From: Candidatus Omnitrophica bacterium UBA5776
GTDB taxonomy: Bacteria; Omnitrophota; Gorgyraeia; Gygaellales; Profunditerraquicolaceae
DNA: 6,745 nucleotides
Assembly (NCBI GenBank): GCA_002418595.1
Contig: DIEK01000083.1
Span: forward strand, 1 to 6,745
Direction: 5' to 3'
In this document: one piece after another, positions 2 to 6,715 of the stretch
How the letters are laid out: every line of letters begins with the position of its first letter
Position numbering within the stretch: position 1 is the stretch's first letter
Notes under the pieces: generated by a model
Seen by the model: the letters and a program-made list of their open reading frames with translations, nothing else
What the model was told of the DNA's origin: nothing
Databases searched by the model: none
Translations under genes and position numbers: made by a program

Positions 2-2686
2 GACGACGTCTGGGAGATGTTCATGATAAGATTCTCCGGAGAAGGGCGCCCCTACTGGAAGAACTACTGGGCGCTGCGCGGGATAACTTTTTCCGTCTCC
101 GAAGGGGAAGTCCTGGGCATCATGGGAGAGAACGGGTCGGGGAAAACGACGATACTCAAACTCATCGGCGGGATCATCCGTCCGGACCGCGGAAGCGGGG
201 AGGTGAAGGGGAAGGCCGCCGGGCTGCTGGAACTGGGAGCGGGATTCCAGCCCGAACTTACCGGAAGGGAGAACGTGCTCATCTGTTCCGGAATGCACGG
301 TTATTCCGGAGAGGCCGCCGAAAGAAAACTTAAGGAGGTGGGCGATTTCGCCCGTATCGGAGATTTTATTAATGCCCCGGTTAAGAATTATTCCCAGGGT
401 ATGTTCGTGCGGCTCGCTTTTTCTTTTGCCGTCAGCCTGGAACCGGACATTCTCCTTATAGACGATAGCCTGGCAGTGGGCGACGGCGATTTCCAAAAAA
501 GCTGTATCGACAAGATAATCTCCTTGAAAGAATCAGGGCGCACGATAATCTTCGTCACCCACGATACCGGCCTGCTGAACAAGATAGCCACCCGGGCGCT
601 GCTTTTAAAGAACGGCAGGTTATTGGAGGATTCGCAGCCGGAACGCGTCGGCGCCCTTTACGCCCTGGTCTGCGGCAGCCCGGAGGGGAAAGCCGCCCTG
701 GAATCCGGCAGGCTGCGGATGGTGTTTAATAACGGGATATTATTCTTTTCATGGGACGGAAGGCAGGTGACTTCCGAGAAAGGGGTATCTGCTTATCTGC
801 TCTGTGCCGGAGAATGGCTTTTTTCTCATTCGGGGCAATGGAGAATAACCGGCGGCGGCGGGAATAGGATAGAGGCGGAGGGGATTTTTTCGGACAAGGG
901 GGTCTCTTTGAAATGGATCATCGAGCTCGCGGAGAATGGCGGCGTCCAGTGGGACATATACGCGTATTCCGAAGACGGCGCGCCTCTTGTGTCCGACTGC
1001 CGGATGGAATTTTGCTTCGACCGCGCCTACAACGAGTGGTTCACGAACGTTTCCCGAGGCGGGCTGGGGGCGGTATCCTCCGTCCAGGCAAGAGAGGCGT
1101 CCTCCGCGTGGATTCGTTATGCCGCGGTAAAGCCGGAGGAAAGGGAAGAAGACCGGGGAGCCGGGCTTCCGGAGGTGGTGGTGGAGCCGCGCAGAGATAA
1201 CGAGGATAGCGACGGAGTGGAGGTGCTGGACGGAGAAGACAATTTCGGCAGGATGATGTTGCGTAGCGCTCACCCTCCTTTGTCTTCGGCCCCGAAATGG
1301 CGTTCCGCGGCAGCGTATTTCTCCGGGAGGATATTCTTCCGCCGGCAGTCCGTTCCGGTGCAGGCTGCCGCCGATGATAATGAAAAGGAGCTGGTCTCCG
1401 GGGACAGCAGATTTCTCTTTCACAACGGCGAGTTGCTTATGATTAGCGCCGGAGTTCCCCTTACTTGTTCCCGGCATATATACGCGGAGATATACGGAGA
1501 CAGGCAGATATACGATTCCCGCGAGGCCGGCTGGAAAGTCAGAAAGACGGGCCCGGACAGAATAGTGGCCTGCGGATTCTGGCCGGGAGCGGCGTTCCGG
1601 CAGCTTTGGGAAATACTGCTGGCCTCCGACGGGACGCTGCGGATTAAGATATGGTTGGTGTGCCGGGCCGTTTCTTTATTCAGAAGGAGAAGGCTGCAGG
1701 CAATGTGTTTGTCTTCCTATTCTTCGTATTTCAGTTGTTTCGGTTCCGGAGAATTCCCCGCCAGATTCTGCACAGAGGAATACGACGTGCTGCAAAGATG
1801 TTTGCCCTGCGGCGACCTGGGAGTTTTAGACGCCAGCGGGAAGCTTCCCACCCTCGCCCTTTCGTTTGAGGAAGAGGAGAATAATTTTGCGAAAATCATG
1901 AATTCCGACCTTTTCAACCGCAGCCGCATATTGAGTGTGGAAAAAGTCGAGCCGGAAGAAAAACTGTTGTTTCCTCCCGGCAGGCACCACTGTTTTTCCG
2001 TTTCCATCAGGGCTTTTCCTCCCGGGACGGACCTTTCCGCGGGAGCGGAACTCCGTTCCGGTAAAGCCGGACTGCTTTTTTCCGGGGGAAGATTCGCGCT
2101 TATCCATGAAGGAAAAACCTTGAGCGGCGATTTGGGGTTATATGTTTCTTTCCGTTCCGGAGGGCGGTGGCACGACTCGGTGTCCAAAACGGTATGGAAA
2201 CTGGATTCCTGCAAAGAAGGGGAGTTGACGTGTTCCGCGCAGTGGAGACAGTTGCCCATAAAACAAACCTGGCGTATTTACGCGAAAGGCAAAGGGAGGT
2301 TCGCGATACAGGTAGTTTTGCTCGTGACCGGGGATACCATACTTGAAAGGCAACAATTCAACCTGGCGCTTCGCGAGGTTTACAGCCGGTGGTCTCATCG
2401 TTCCCGCGGCGGCGTGTTCGGCATGTTCCCGCGCGATACAGGGGACGACTGGCAGACCGTGGAGACGGTTCCCGCCGGCGCGCAGCCGTTAAGCGCCTCC
2501 TGCACGAAGAACGGCCTGCCTGAAGTGAAGCTGGCCGTAGATGAAATAAGGGAAGGATGGAAGTTGGAAGCGGTCAATTCCGACCTCTGTTACCGGTCTA
2601 GAGTGCTGCGTTTGAGTAATGCAGGGGAGACAGCGCTTTCTCCGGGAGAAAGCGTGTTTTTTTCCGGGATGCTGACGATAGAATGA
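2..2686 (+). CDS. Polysaccharide ABC transporter ATP-binding protein, Wzt/TagH type, with a giant three-module C-terminal tail (5' end cut off)
   Basis: Predicted ATPase of an ABC exporter that moves an undecaprenyl-linked or similar glycan across the inner membrane; its permease is not in the window. Residues are numbered from the ATG at 17. Walker A is GENGSGKT at 37-44, the Q-loop glutamine is Q78 in GAGFQPELTGREN, the signature is NYSQGM at 124-129, Walker B is ILLIDD at 145-150, the D-loop region is SLAVGD, and the H-loop is H182. YSQGM and LAVGD are typical of O-antigen and teichoic-acid exporters. The frame stays open upstream to the edge (codons D-D-V-W-E), and only 36 residues precede Walker A, so the true start is probably outside the window. 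Residues about 232-889 are three copies of a beta-rich module, against one binding domain of 150-200 residues in ordinary Wzt proteins. The position of the usual catalytic glutamate is D150. The ATPase call is very secure; the tail's role in binding the exported glycan is inferred from Wzt. Confidence 0.93.
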   Translation, partial: DDVWEMFMIRFSGEGRPYWKNYWALRGITFSVSEGEVLGIMGENGSGKTTILKLIGGIIRPDRGSGEVKGKAAGLLELGAGFQPELTGRENVLICSGMHGYSGEAAERKLKEVGDFARIGDFINAPVKNYSQGMFVRLAFSFAVSLEPDILLIDDSLAVGDGDFQKSCIDKIISLKESGRTIIFVTHDTGLLNKIATRALLLKNGRLLEDSQPERVGALYALVCGSPEGKAALESGRLRMVFNNGILFFSWDGRQVTSEKGVSAYLLCAGEWLFSHSGQWRITGGGGNRIEAEGIFSDKGVSLKWIIELAENGGVQWDIYAYSEDGAPLVSDCRMEFCFDRAYNEWFTNVSRGGLGAVSSVQAREASSAWIRYAAVKPEEREEDRGAGLPEVVVEPRRDNEDSDGVEVLDGEDNFGRMMLRSAHPPLSSAPKWRSAAAYFSGRIFFRRQSVPVQAAADDNEKELVSGDSRFLFHNGELLMISAGVPLTCSRHIYAEIYGDRQIYDSREAGWKVRKTGPDRIVACGFWPGAAFRQLWEILLASDGTLRIKIWLVCRAVSLFRRRRLQAMCLSSYSSYFSCFGSGEFPARFCTEEYDVLQRCLPCGDLGVLDASGKLPTLALSFEEEENNFAKIMNSDLFNRSRILSVEKVEPEEKLLFPPGRHHCFSVSIRAFPPGTDLSAGAELRSGKAGLLFSGGRFALIHEGKTLSGDLGLYVSFRSGGRWHDSVSKTVWKLDSCKEGELTCSAQWRQLPIKQTWRIYAKGKGRFAIQVVLLVTGDTILERQQFNLALREVYSRWSHRSRGGVFGMFPRDTGDDWQTVETVPAGAQPLSASCTKNGLPEVKLAVDEIREGWKLEAVNSDLCYRSRVLRLSNAGETALSPGESVFFSGMLTIE
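710..2683 (+). repeat. Three tandem diverged protein modules (about 225-residue period) in the ABC ATPase tail
   Basis: Three copies cover residues about 232-441, 463-665 and 682-889 of the ABC protein. Landmarks recur in the same order. An opening 'F-x-x-G' strand is FNNG, FHNG, FSGG. A W followed by a basic residue and a hydrophobic one is at W275, W506, W727. A second W is at W300, W531, W752. A Tyr followed three residues later by an aromatic starts at Y338, Y568, Y789. A Leu-Pro strand start is at L384, L610, L834. NSDLFNRSR (629-637) matches NSDLCYRSR (854-862), with the decayed counterpart EDNFGRMML (407-415) in copy 1. A closing FSGxI-like strand ends copies 1 and 3 and is degenerate (FSVSI) in copy 2. 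Copies 2 and 3 are closest to each other. The alternating hydrophobic pattern suggests beta-sandwich folds. I do not recognise a named family. The similarity is at protein level only, so this is an old duplication. Confidence 0.8.
2634..2663 (+). terminator. Terminator-like hairpin and T-run inside the 3' end of the ABC gene
   Basis: A perfect inverted repeat with 10-base arms (CGCTTTCTCC at 2634-2643 and GGAGAAAGCG at 2645-2654) surrounds a single central base. As RNA it can fold into a 9-bp stem with a 3-base loop, and a G-U pair could extend it at the base. It is followed by T, G and seven T residues (2657-2663), the layout of a factor-independent terminator. It lies within codons for A-L-S-P-G-E-S-V-F-F, 20 bases before the next start codon. 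Translating ribosomes would normally prevent folding, so it could act as a polar or partial terminator when translation fails, or alter initiation of gene 2. It may instead be a coincidence of codon choice. Confidence 0.45.
2683..2686 (+). promoter_or_regulatory. ATGA stop/start overlap coupling genes 1 and 2
   Basis: The start ATG of the glycoside hydrolase gene shares bases with the TGA stop of the ABC gene. No strong Shine-Dalgarno sequence is at the usual distance; the best candidate is a weak GGGA at 2666-2669. Termination-reinitiation by the same ribosomes is therefore the likely way gene 2 is translated. This supports the ATG at 2683 over the in-frame GTG at 2704. Confidence 0.65.
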
Positions 2687-4833
2687 TCATACCGGGTGAA
2701 TGCGTGATTGTTGGATCACCGAAAGGCGGCGGCATCCGCGCAGCCGGTAAACCGGCAAAGAAATTTCCCGCGTCCCGCGGACAAGCCGTTTATCTCGCCT
2801 TTTTGTTGTCTTTTTGTTGTTACGGCCAGGGACTGCAGGCGGCGGAGTCTCTGGCGAAAGACTTTTATTCCGCGCGATGGAGGGTAACGGCCGATTCAGG
2901 CTGGGCCGCGTCTTCCGGCGGGGAAGTCGAACTTTATAGCCGGACAAAGAGTCTCCCGGCCAAGCTCCGATATTCATTTAATAAAAATAATCTCTGGCAA
3001 TGGCCGGAAATAACGTTTTCGCTGGACCTTCCGAAGGCAGGGGATTTAAGCGGATTTTCCTGGCTCAAGGCGAGGCTGCGTGGACCGGCGAACGAAGAGA
3101 TGTACCTTGTTGTGACGGTCGAGGATAAGAACACCGGAGCGTTGAAGCCTTGCATATGCCGGATCCGCACGGCCGGCTACCCGGTGGATTACAAACTGCC
3201 TTTTTCGGCGTTTGTCGTCTCCCCGGACTGGACGGTGCGCAACCCCGGTTATTCACCGGATATTGAGTGGAAGAAAGTGCGTTCGATCGGGATGCATAAA
3301 AAGGGCAGCGACGGCGGCAAGGGCAGCATCTTCTGGGAACGTCTGGCGTTTTATAGGGGAGGTTGTCCTTCCCCTTACGATATAGAAAAAGACAGGAGCG
3401 CTTCTCCGCGGCACTTTTTGGTTCCCCTGGGAAAACGCGGAAGAAAAAACGTTTATTCCGGACGCGTGGAGATATTCCCCGCTAAAGGGGCGAGCAGGAC
3501 GGTGAGCCGTTATTTATACGGAGCTAACCTTGCCAGCTGGCTGGATCTGCCCGAAGAGGAACAGGTCAGGCTTTTGAGACCGGCGTTCCTGCGTCTGGGC
3601 GGGCCTTTTCTTGATCGTTATTCCTGGAGCCGCGGGTTTTACACTTTTCCCAGGTCGGCGTTAAGGATGAGGATGTTTCCCCTGGACAGGTTCGTGCGGT
3701 TTTGCCGCGCCGTCGGAAGCGAACCGATGATACAGATAAATGCTTTGGGTTATCGCGGTGAATCCGGCGGCGGCTTCAGTGCGGATAAAGAGGCCGCGGA
3801 GATGGTGCGGTATTTGAACGGCGGTCCGGGCGGCGGCGTAAGGTTTTTCGAGATAGGGAACGAGCCGTTCATCTGGCACTGGACGCATCCCGACCTGCAT
3901 CCGCAGCCTTGCTCTGCGGAAGAATATTCCGTCCGCTTCGAAAAGATAGCCGGGGCCATGCGCCGCGCCCAGACTGAACTGCAAAACGGACGGGATATCA
4001 AGATATTCGCGCCGGCGATTTCCACAGCCTGGCAGGGATGGCGTGACTGCCTGGACGGAGAGGAAAACGCCGTGGAGAAATTCCTTGCCGAGAGCGCTTC
4101 TTTCAAGAATGAAGCAGACGGCAGACCTTTGCTGGACGTCTTGAGTTTTCATCTCTTCAATCGTTTTGCCGCCGAAGGAGGCCGGGAAGCTCAGCACGGC
4201 AACGCGGCCTTGCTCGATGCTACCGCCGTATGGTGGAAGAAAGATTACGTCAACAGTTATGACAAGGCTTTCGCCGCGGGGGACAAACCGGCGGTATTGC
4301 CGCGTTTCAGAAAGTGGATCGCCGATTACGGGCCCGGGCTGGAGTTGGCGGTTACGGAGTTCAATATCGAGTCCGAGTCGATGATAAATTACGATATGCT
4401 CTGGAAGGTATTGTATTTAAGCGACCTTTACGGCATTCTCGCGGAAGGAGGCGTTGATTACGCCGCGCAATTCTGCCTGAATTCATCCGACCAGAACATA
4501 GCGATGCTGGACGATACCGGAAAGAAAACCGCCTTGTATCATCCGTTCAGGCTGTATTCAAATTATTTTTCCGGAGTCTTGATGGACAAAAAAGTCGTCC
4601 CGGAGAACTGGGTGAGCGTGTATGCCTCCCGGCAGGGCGGGGATTATACGCTAATGGCGATCAACAAAGCTAACGAAACCAGGGATACGGAATTTCTGGT
4701 CGGAACGGACAATGGGGACAGCGTGATCTTTAAACGCAGGCTGCCCGCCTTGAGTTTGAGCTGTATCAGGCTGAAAGGCCCCGCTTATAAGGAAGCGGAA
4801 GTATGGGAATATGGCAGAGCACAGATCCATTGA
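2683..4833 (+). CDS. Secreted glycoside hydrolase, clan GH-A (GH44-like), with N-terminal carbohydrate-binding-like domain
   Basis: Predicted 716-residue exported enzyme that hydrolyses a polysaccharide by a retaining mechanism. A basic N-region (KPAKK at 23-27) precedes a hydrophobic core at about 35-49 and a likely signal peptidase I site after LQA (51-53). The cysteines in the core lack a lipobox, so it is probably not a lipoprotein. Residues about 57-225 look like a CBM11/CIA30-type jelly roll (LSGFSWLKARLRG, the strand around VVTVEDKN, and IFWERLAFY). The barrel begins near 275 with FLRLGGPFLDRYSW (302-315). FFEIGNEP (388-395) supplies the acid/base E394, and LAVTEFN (555-561) the nucleophile E559. 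The 165-residue spacing and the following THPDLHP fit GH44 (endoglucanase/xyloglucanase) better than GH39 or GH51, where the spacing is shorter. A small beta domain (about 620-698) closes the protein, as in these families. No sortase or anchor motif is seen. Substrate is unknown; given its neighbours it may trim or release the exported polymer rather than digest food. Confidence 0.88.
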   Translation: MIIPGECVIVGSPKGGGIRAAGKPAKKFPASRGQAVYLAFLLSFCCYGQGLQAAESLAKDFYSARWRVTADSGWAASSGGEVELYSRTKSLPAKLRYSFNKNNLWQWPEITFSLDLPKAGDLSGFSWLKARLRGPANEEMYLVVTVEDKNTGALKPCICRIRTAGYPVDYKLPFSAFVVSPDWTVRNPGYSPDIEWKKVRSIGMHKKGSDGGKGSIFWERLAFYRGGCPSPYDIEKDRSASPRHFLVPLGKRGRKNVYSGRVEIFPAKGASRTVSRYLYGANLASWLDLPEEEQVRLLRPAFLRLGGPFLDRYSWSRGFYTFPRSALRMRMFPLDRFVRFCRAVGSEPMIQINALGYRGESGGGFSADKEAAEMVRYLNGGPGGGVRFFEIGNEPFIWHWTHPDLHPQPCSAEEYSVRFEKIAGAMRRAQTELQNGRDIKIFAPAISTAWQGWRDCLDGEENAVEKFLAESASFKNEADGRPLLDVLSFHLFNRFAAEGGREAQHGNAALLDATAVWWKKDYVNSYDKAFAAGDKPAVLPRFRKWIADYGPGLELAVTEFNIESESMINYDMLWKVLYLSDLYGILAEGGVDYAAQFCLNSSDQNIAMLDDTGKKTALYHPFRLYSNYFSGVLMDKKVVPENWVSVYASRQGGDYTLMAINKANETRDTEFLVGTDNGDSVIFKRRLPALSLSCIRLKGPAYKEAEVWEYGRAQIH
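2799..2820 (+). repeat. Perfect 11-bp tandem duplication in the signal-peptide coding region
   Basis: CTTTTTGTTGT occurs at 2799-2809 and again immediately at 2810-2820. It encodes part of the hydrophobic core of the exported hydrolase's signal peptide (A-F-L-L-S-F-C-C). Because 11 is not a multiple of three, gaining or losing one copy by strand slippage would shift the frame and abolish the protein. Two copies is few for a true phase-variation tract, and the hydrophobic composition favours T-rich codons. Confidence 0.6.
4797..4801 (+). promoter_or_regulatory. Ribosome binding site for the glycosyltransferase-radical SAM gene
   Basis: GGAAG lies 9 bases before the ATG at 4811, inside the end of the upstream gene. 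A second purine-rich match, AAGGAAG at 4789-4795, is farther away. The ATG at 4803 is in another frame. The good spacing and the immediate GT2 strand after the start (D-I-S-V-V-I-P-T-Y-N) support 4811 as the true start. Confidence 0.6.
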
Positions 4834-6715
4834 TATATCGGTAGTGATCCCCACTTATAACCGTAAACGGCTGTTGGAAGAATGTCTTGATTCGGTGTTG
4901 TGTCAGGACCTTCCCGGCGGATCTTTCGAAATAGTAGTGGTGGATGACGGTTCCTCCGACGGGACCGGCCTTTTTGCCGGCGGACCCGGAAAGGACCGGG
5001 ACAATATACGTTATATAAAACAGGAGCGCCGCGGTCCGGCGGCGGCGAGAAATACCGGAGCGGCGCATTGCGGCGGCCGGATAATCGCGTTCATAGACGA
5101 TGACTGCCGCGCCTGTCCCGGATGGCTGCGGGGCATGCTGGAGGCGCACCGGCTGCATTCGTCTGCGGCGGCCGTAGGCGGATATACGCTGTCTGATCCG
5201 GAAGGCGGCATCGCGCAGGAGGTAAGTCAGTTCCTGAGCAACAGCAGCATTGAGATCGACTGCGGCAGAGGCAGGGAACCGATATTTTTCCCTACCTGCA
5301 ACGTCTCTCTTAAGAGAGAAATCTTTTCACGCTGTGAATTCGATCCTTCTTTTCCTTTCCCGGCGGGGGAAGATCTGGAATTCTTCTGGAGGTTGTATAA
5401 ACAGGGGGAGAGGTTGGTTTTTGATCCCAAGATCAGGGTCGTTCACCGCCGCCTCCCCGGTCCGGCGGCTTTCTGCAGGCAGGCGTATCTTTACGGCAGG
5501 GGGAATCTGCTGGTAAAGCGACTTCACCGCGACCATGTGTTGCTGCAGGAGCTAAAGACCGGGCGGTTCGGTTTCTGGGCCGGTATGCTGGTAAATATGG
5601 CGAAGATTCCCAGGTTCGCTTATTGCCTGTGCCGGTTCTTTGCGCGTTCCCGGGGGGAGGCTTACGGGCGATTCAAAAAGGCAGGCGTGTTTTTCTTTTT
5701 CTGCCTGCATAAAATAGCATATATTTTCGGTAATGTCGCGAGGTTCTGCAGCGGCCGCAGGCTTCCTTTTGCCGCTCCGCAACTTTTAATACTGGACGTC
5801 ACGCATAAATGCAATCTGCGTTGCCGTATATGCGATATCTGGAAAAATGCCGGTCGGGAAAAGGATATCTCCGGCAGATACGTCCGAAAACTGTTGAAGG
5901 AAGCGGCATCTTCCGGCATACAAGAGGTGGCTTTTTCCGGAGGAGAAGCCATGCTGCGCAGCGACATACTGGACCTTCTGGCATGCGCCCGCGGATTGGG
6001 GCTGAAAGGAGTGGGATTGCTTTCCAACGGGATTGCCGTGCGGCGTGATTTCGGGAAGCTGGAACCGTTTCTGAGGGACGGGACGGCGGTCCCGGTCCTG
6101 TCCCTGGATTCCCTGCGTCCGGAACTGCATAATTACGTGAGAGACGACGCGCGGGCCTGGGAGAATTCGATTGAGGCGCTCAAGGCCCTGGCGGATTTAA
6201 GAAAAGAAGCTTCGGGAGTAAAATTCAGTGTGATCAGCATCGTTTTCGAGCGGAATCTTGAGGAGCTTGAAGATCTCTATGTGTTCGCGCGCGAGCTGGG
6301 CGCGTGTAATATTCAGTACCAGCCGCTGCTGGCCAACAACCTGAAGATGGCGGAGAGAAAGAACGCGGAGTTATGGGTGAAGCCCGGGAGTTTCGGCAGT
6401 CTGGAACGCGCAGTCGAAAGGCTTATTGCGCGCGGGCGTTCGGACGGCGGGTTCCTGCGTAATTCGGAAGGCAATCTCAGGCTGTTCAAGAAATATTTTG
6501 CCGGTGAGCTGACGCCCGGGGACTGCGTTTGTTCATCCGCCGGCAGGACCGTTCTGGTCGCCAACGACGGGTACTGCCGCACCTGTTTTTCCGCTTACGG
6601 AGATATCCGCAGGCAAAGCCTGGCGGATATACTGTCGGGGCCGCGGATCAATGAGGCCAGGGAACGCGTGCGTAAATGTCCATGGCCGTGCCTGCTCCCT
6701 TGTTTTTGCGATTAA
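4811..6715 (+). CDS. Fusion of family-2 glycosyltransferase and radical SAM/SPASM-like enzyme
   Basis: Predicted bifunctional 634-residue enzyme at the cytoplasmic membrane face. Residues 7-215 are a GT-A glycosyltransferase of family 2: VVIPTYNR (11-18), VVVDDGSSDGT (42-52), metal/nucleotide-binding IDDD (95-98) and GEDLEF (186-191) with the likely catalytic base in E187-D188. Residues about 250-310 contain hydrophobic, aromatic-rich stretches (around 253-278 and 291-309) that probably associate with the membrane. A second catalytic domain starts near 323. THKCNLRCRIC gives the CX3CX2C radical SAM cluster ligands C334, C338 and C341, and FSGGEA (375-380) is the SAM-binding GGE motif. Cysteines at 572, 574, 589, 592, 623, 627, 631 and 633 form a SPASM/twitch-like auxiliary Fe-S region ending at the last residue but one. 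The start is supported by GGAAG upstream; the gene overlaps the hydrolase gene by 23 bases. Donor, acceptor and radical chemistry cannot be read from sequence. The domains are unbroken in one frame, with no sign of a frameshift joining two genes. Confidence 0.92.
   Translation: MAEHRSIDISVVIPTYNRKRLLEECLDSVLCQDLPGGSFEIVVVDDGSSDGTGLFAGGPGKDRDNIRYIKQERRGPAAARNTGAAHCGGRIIAFIDDDCRACPGWLRGMLEAHRLHSSAAAVGGYTLSDPEGGIAQEVSQFLSNSSIEIDCGRGREPIFFPTCNVSLKREIFSRCEFDPSFPFPAGEDLEFFWRLYKQGERLVFDPKIRVVHRRLPGPAAFCRQAYLYGRGNLLVKRLHRDHVLLQELKTGRFGFWAGMLVNMAKIPRFAYCLCRFFARSRGEAYGRFKKAGVFFFFCLHKIAYIFGNVARFCSGRRLPFAAPQLLILDVTHKCNLRCRICDIWKNAGREKDISGRYVRKLLKEAASSGIQEVAFSGGEAMLRSDILDLLACARGLGLKGVGLLSNGIAVRRDFGKLEPFLRDGTAVPVLSLDSLRPELHNYVRDDARAWENSIEALKALADLRKEASGVKFSVISIVFERNLEELEDLYVFARELGACNIQYQPLLANNLKMAERKNAELWVKPGSFGSLERAVERLIARGRSDGGFLRNSEGNLRLFKKYFAGELTPGDCVCSSAGRTVLVANDGYCRTCFSAYGDIRRQSLADILSGPRINEARERVRKCPWPCLLPCFCD

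Follow-up and report, generated by a model that had tools for sequence, protein, structure and literature searches.

The question raised by this locus is whether a glycosyltransferase joined to a radical enzyme is genuine and, if so, on what molecule it acts. The locus occupies the first 6,745 nucleotides of contig DIEK01000083.1 (the window) from Candidatus Omnitrophica bacterium UBA5776. There, a single ATG-to-stop frame on the forward strand (4811..6715) encodes a protein of 634 amino acids (aa) in which a family 2 glycosyltransferase (GT2) precedes a radical S-adenosylmethionine (SAM) domain. An earlier interpretation made from the DNA alone (the sequence-only reading) had held that both halves keep their key motifs in one frame. 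Pfam searches and an alignment of 62 members bore this out. PF00535 (GT2) covered residues 10 to 172 with 110 bits (cut-off, 23.3), and PF04055 (radical SAM) covered residues 330 to 492 with 66.2 bits (cut-off, 29.5). The GT2 catalytic domain (residues 10 to 240; 4838..5530) contains DDGSSDGT at residues 45 to 52 (DDG at 4943-4951), IDDD at 95 to 98 (DDD at 5096-5104), and ED at 187 and 188 (5369-5374). The radical SAM core (residues 321 to 505; 5771..6325) contains CX3CX2C at residues 334, 338, and 341 (5810-5833) and GGE at 377 to 379 (5939-5947).

The protein search scored 7996 candidates and returned 528 homologues at an E value of ≤1e-3. The best 120 of the 528 covered 94 to 100% of the query with 42 to 95% identity, and both Pfam domains were present in them according to a table read by eye. 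Sixty-two of the 120 homologues listed were aligned, and all 62 matched both PF00535 and PF04055. D46, D96, D98, E187, and D188 were unchanged in every aligned member, as were C334, C338, and C341, the GGE motif, and C574, C592, C623, C627, and C631. Less strictly kept were D45 (59/62), C633 (60/62), and C589 (33/62). A genome of the same genus carried a copy 95% identical in one frame. The radical SAM half grouped by itself in phylogenetic trees, not with an unrelated housekeeping family, and its top NCBIfam score was 85.7 bits against a cut-off of 500. The results confirmed that the GT2-radical SAM fusion is a real, conserved enzyme family.

The fusion is far from being restricted to this assembly. 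In the Omnitrophota phylum, 21 of 384 genomes matched it at an E value of ≤1e-60, and 18 of the 384 carried it in one frame, including one copy cut by a contig end (G394) and one lying within a longer frame (G204). The other three matching genomes had it in two frames (G287), broken over two contigs (G279), or as the GT half only (G090); in the last, the lone GT half (L039, 9545-10492) was followed, as judged by eye, by apparent B12-radical SAM and radical SAM genes. Scanning named genomes for two peptide patterns yielded 32 loci, namely, 27 named Omnitrophota or "bacterium," three archaeal, and two Bacteroidetes loci with part of the GT half only. The top-matching named contigs were Omnitrophota. 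Three archaeal contigs of the DPANN group (L060, L061, and L067) carried the fusion in one frame with 36% identity, followed by two radical SAM cluster genes, with a GDSL-type gene between them in L067. L061 also encoded an ABC2 permease together with an ATPase that bears Wzt_C. Because L067 encodes an archaeal helicase domain (PF21280, 104 bits), at least this contig appears to be of archaeal origin. The scattered distribution of the fusion is suggestive of transfer or loss. A full-length fusion with 45% identity (P0073) is labeled Patescibacteria by its source. A distant GT2-radical SAM fusion with 27% identity (L010, 1486-3056, in G027), whose end lies beyond the available stretch, perhaps represents an independent fusion event.

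The cysteines behind the radical SAM core were examined next. The auxiliary region (6530..6709) has the arrangement C574-X12-G-X4-C592 ... C623-X3-C627-X3-C631-X-C633, and these residues are likely to be ligands of one or two Fe-S clusters. The sequence-only reading had placed the protein among SPASM enzymes, whose canonical seven-Cys pattern is CX9-15GX4C ... CX2CX5CX3C ... C. The region is SPASM-like in having C-X12-G-X4-C, but the late part reads CX3CX3C instead, five Cys are invariant, and the SPASM match (PF13186, residues 574 to 623) reached 21.1 bits, below the cut-off of 21.5. SPASM was matched at an E value of ≤1e-3 in 14 of the 62 aligned members, and one relative, L088, exceeded the cut-off with 27.4 bits. 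Between the two domains, a stretch of helices (residues 241 to 315; 5531..5755) aligned in a fold comparison with helices of hyaluronan synthase and PcManGT. Hydropathy in this stretch did not exceed 1.51 (19-residue windows, every 5 residues), and the hydropathy scan revealed no clear transmembrane helix in the fusion; a window of ≥1.6 was found anywhere in the protein in 11 of the 62 aligned members. These are likely membrane-interface helices.

We compared the fused gene with separate versions of its halves. Two-gene versions exist: four pairs of full-length separate GT2 and radical SAM halves were found, paired by equal-sized contigs except for P0131/P0243, which match L064; in that locus, the two genes lie side by side and share 8 bases, ATGCTTGA. 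Trees were built from 32 fusion rows out of the 62, together with a single archaeal copy out of the three (L060; L061 and L067 were absent); these were quick trees with many open forks. In the radical SAM tree, split rows appeared at four places within the bacterial fusion clade (support, 87), and the starred branches forced at least two changes in that tree and at least one in the GT tree. The splits look secondary because the split rows nest inside the bacterial fusion clade. L060 branched at an open fork outside this clade in the radical SAM tree, but the GT tree placed it within the family, together with P0149 and P0151, which are lone GT proteins; therefore, the trees do not show that the archaeal and bacterial fusions arose only once. 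The two trees agreed over 37 rows (Pearson, 0.76; Spearman, 0.74; highest of 999 permutations, 0.42), as expected for any stable pair whose halves stay together. Extended forms were found as well. A B12-radical SAM-GT2-radical SAM triple fusion of 1170 aa lies in one frame in L054 (8432-11944), with the same gene (L088) in G204, and P0108 and P0117 (963 and 976 aa) are GT2-radical SAM-radical SAM proteins. These extended fusions are the strongest hint that the radical SAM enzymes and the transferase share a pathway.

The neighboring genes point to an exporter. In the window, the fusion is preceded on the same strand by a gene for a Wzt-like ATP-binding cassette (ABC) ATPase (2..2686; PF00005, 66 bits; frame open at the contig start) and by a gene similar to glycoside hydrolase family 44 (GH44) (2683..4833; PF12891, 53.3 bits; cut-off, 25.1). 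Because 4 bases are common to the Wzt and GH44-like genes and 23 bases to the GH44-like gene and the fusion, the three genes probably form one transcription unit. The window forms the beginning of contig 85 in a 1.4-Mb genome; the contig extends past it to 10,295 bases, and the further part contains a gene of the B12-radical SAM cluster and then two radical SAM genes, the last one open at the contig end. Homologues of the GH44-like gene were seen in four other loci.

This arrangement recurs as an island, which we counted in 24 bacterial loci of the 32. Left out of the counts were L065 and L069 (both with a broken gene), L070 (radical SAM match of 29%), the three archaeal loci, and the Bacteroidetes loci L071 and L072, which cover residues 9 to 181 only. 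Neighbors were labeled by BLAST against the genes of one locus, L041. The usual order was GT4, a WecA-like gene (PF00953), a flavin adenine dinucleotide-dependent oxidoreductase, Wzm, a Wzt of about 900 aa, sometimes GH44, and the fusion, with B12-radical SAM and radical SAM genes and a GT2 gene on its 3' side. Wzt was upstream in 21 of the 22 loci having at least 900 bases of upstream DNA, and Wzm was upstream in all 17 having 4.5 kb. An ABC2_membrane permease (PF01061) adjacent to an ABC ATPase (PF00005) identified these as Wzm/Wzt export loci. One to seven additional radical SAM genes followed the fusion in 20 of the 24 loci (three in L064). The four loci lacking them (L055, L056, L059, and L068) all have no more than about 2.5 kb of downstream DNA, and L059 terminates in a 98-aa piece bearing a radical SAM motif.

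The long Wzt was then searched in the same 384 genomes, of which 55 matched at an E value of ≤1e-70. The 17 best genomes (E value of ≤2e-100, a cut chosen after the list had been inspected) all had the fusion, whether intact, split, or broken, and the window's Wzt aligned nearly end to end in most of them. Wzt shared a contig with the fusion match in 17 of the 21 fusion-match genomes; it lay on a different contig in G054 and G050, and none was found at an E value of ≤1e-70 in G216 and G090. In a Pfam search, the window's Wzt had no match to the carbohydrate-binding domain Wzt_C. Its top NCBIfam models, below their cut-offs, were teichoic-acid and galactan export ATPases, and its C-terminal extension of more than 600 aa matched no Pfam family. 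The next-ranked Wzt genomes, G052 and G013, were outside the fusion list. Among the matches listed, eight radical SAM matches lie on the long-Wzt contig of G052 (contig 7) and seven on that of G013 (contig 7); therefore, radical SAM-rich export islands apparently extend to genomes beyond those with the fusion. Contig 60 of G052 has at its end a 73-residue piece that is 55% identical to the C terminus of the fusion, so that G052 may carry a fusion cut by the assembly.

We hold, with about even confidence, that the two-domain enzyme transfers a sugar onto a lipid-linked glycan and alters this glycan by radical chemistry before Wzm/Wzt-type export. The fused frame, its conservation, its intact motifs, and the island were observed directly; the substrate and the reaction are what we infer. 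The membrane-bound acceptor proposed in the sequence-only reading could be a glycan, which fits the Wzm/Wzt-type exporter encoded beside the fusion and, often, the WecA-like gene.

The best-surviving alternative, which we regard as unlikely, is a peptide pathway: after maturation of a ribosomal peptide by the radical SAM domain, the GT2 domain would attach a sugar to it, much as MftC and MftF act in mycofactocin biosynthesis, and the resulting glycopeptide would leave through the ABC transporter. The top NCBIfam model of the GT half was indeed MftF, the radical SAM half resembles NirJ2, GeoRSP, and peptide maturases, and SuiB and SkfB are close to it in fold. However, the MftF match reached 138 of 280 bits and the MftC match 47.9 of 265, both far under their cut-offs. 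We searched 20 genomes for a PqqD-like peptide recognition element (RRE; PF05402), with a control that was positive in 3 of 14 cases. Twelve matches were found in 8 of the 20 genomes, none on a fusion contig, with the limits that many of the contigs have little length and that a divergent RRE could escape. One match, on contig 16 of G227, was separated by roughly 14 kb from another long Wzt. Among 134 small open reading frames (ORFs) of 20 to 90 aa outside called genes, none recurred from one Omnitrophota locus to another, although a divergent precursor could escape. A 47- to 49-aa ORF was common to the archaeal loci L061 (12542-12685) and L067 (14984-15133) at the end of a radical SAM gene, and may be either a precursor or a gene end. 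A search for the MftB chaperone found it in none of the 20 genomes, but its control was silent as well, so that this search weighs on neither side. Within the limits given, the lack of an RRE match on fusion contigs and of a recurring small ORF argues against a peptide substrate. Together with the MftF score and with the WecA-like and Wzm/Wzt neighbors, which suit glycan export, these results favor a lipid-linked glycan as the likely substrate.

It is rather improbable that each domain has a target molecule of its own and that the fusion serves only to tie expression or location. The predicted template modeling score between the GT2 and radical SAM domains was low, and split genes occur inside the bacterial fusion clade, so that the covalent linkage is not essential. 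However, the split halves stay adjacent and overlapping in L064, the trees of the halves agree, though this would hold for any stable pair, and the extended fusions exist. That the two halves share one acceptor remains our inference. Less probable again is that the radical SAM domain, working close to where the sugar is transferred, alters the carrier lipid or some lipid of the membrane instead of the sugar: lipid-acting radical SAM enzymes matched it more weakly than did BlsE, SuiB, or SkfB, and the many other radical SAM genes are located among glycan genes. The source bin is in 131 contigs and 83% complete, and a few unknown bases in a row close the window, but an assembly, frameshift, or binning artefact is refuted to practical certainty, since the same architecture occurs in all 120 homologues listed and in one frame in 18 of the 384 genomes.

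Under the glycan reading, the GT2 domain would use a nucleotide sugar and a metal for a single transfer at the cytoplasmic face of the membrane, as suggested by the presence of DxD and ED, and the interdomain helices would keep the enzyme on the membrane. SAM would be cleaved at the CX3CX2C cluster, and the resulting 5'-deoxyadenosyl radical would abstract a hydrogen from a carbon of the sugar, in either the newly added or the acceptor residue. The auxiliary cluster would accept or donate an electron, giving a dehydrogenated, epimerized, or decarboxylated sugar. The covalent linkage would hold the lipid-linked product beside the radical site, and in the split-gene versions the separate proteins would act in partnership. 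The adjoining radical SAM and B12-radical SAM enzymes would introduce additional modifications into this lipid-linked chain, and the modified glycan would then leave through the Wzm/Wzt-type exporter.

The variety of sugars in surface glycans is generally explained by nucleotide-sugar pathways and by late acyl, methyl, or phosphate additions. A broader proposal, which we put forward tentatively, is a radical glycan assembly line in Omnitrophota and some DPANN archaea that rewrites the sugars of exported surface glycans residue by residue on the lipid carrier: the fusion would add and modify, and up to seven further radical SAM and B12-radical SAM enzymes would add carbon-centered changes that no nucleotide-sugar pathway supplies. 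If true, C-H chemistry on lipid-linked glycans would be a further layer of sugar diversity. The fusion offers one testable protein, with natural two-gene versions such as the pair P0136/P0245, for such chemistry. Omnitrophota are described as not isolated, mostly ultra-small, and with host-dependent traits (PMC10066038); therefore, the chemistry of their surface may matter for their contacts with other cells.

Both domain families are already known, and no account of a GT2-radical SAM fusion was found in the literature searched, where the fusion family is apparently undescribed. Several known systems resemble it in part. The NCBIfam exopolysaccharide models EpsD and EpsB are of Myxococcus origin. 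EpsD (GT) matched the GT half with 136.7 bits (cut-off, 370) and spans that half only, and EpsB (GH44) matched the GH44-like neighbor with 32.2 bits (cut-off, 1250). EpsB-like and EpsD-like parts, two components of one exopolysaccharide cluster type, adjoin here with weak similarity. The alignment with the membrane-bound GT2 enzymes PcManGT and Chlorella virus hyaluronan synthase spans the catalytic domain and the subsequent helices (residues 5 to 318). Hyaluronan synthase is processive and has transmembrane helices; unlike the fusion, neither of the two enzymes has a radical SAM domain. Among biosynthetic clusters of the Cariaco Basin, radical SAM proteins and glycosyltransferases are listed as tailoring enzymes, with Omnitrophota among the cluster-expressing bins (PMC9902471). 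On a plasmid of Brachyspira hyodysenteriae, radical SAM, glycosyltransferase, and rfb genes adjoin, and the authors link this locus to lipooligosaccharide or glycosylation (PMC4267127); the genes there are separate, and the likeness lies in gene content. Mycofactocin biosynthesis combines a radical SAM enzyme with the GT2 enzyme MftF in one pathway (PMC7491314), but with separate genes and a peptide substrate, and the fusion's scores are far under the MftF and MftC equivalog cut-offs. The nearest radical SAM fold, only slightly ahead of peptide maturases, was that of the cytosylglucuronic acid decarboxylase BlsE (7vob; 18% identity, a weak sequence similarity), which acts on a sugar acid (PMC3715490). 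BlsE is stand-alone, has no glycosyltransferase domain, and uses a small nucleoside substrate. To call a link of such radical enzymes to glycan assembly unusual was fair, but BlsE, mycofactocin, and the Brachyspira plasmid provide partial precedents.
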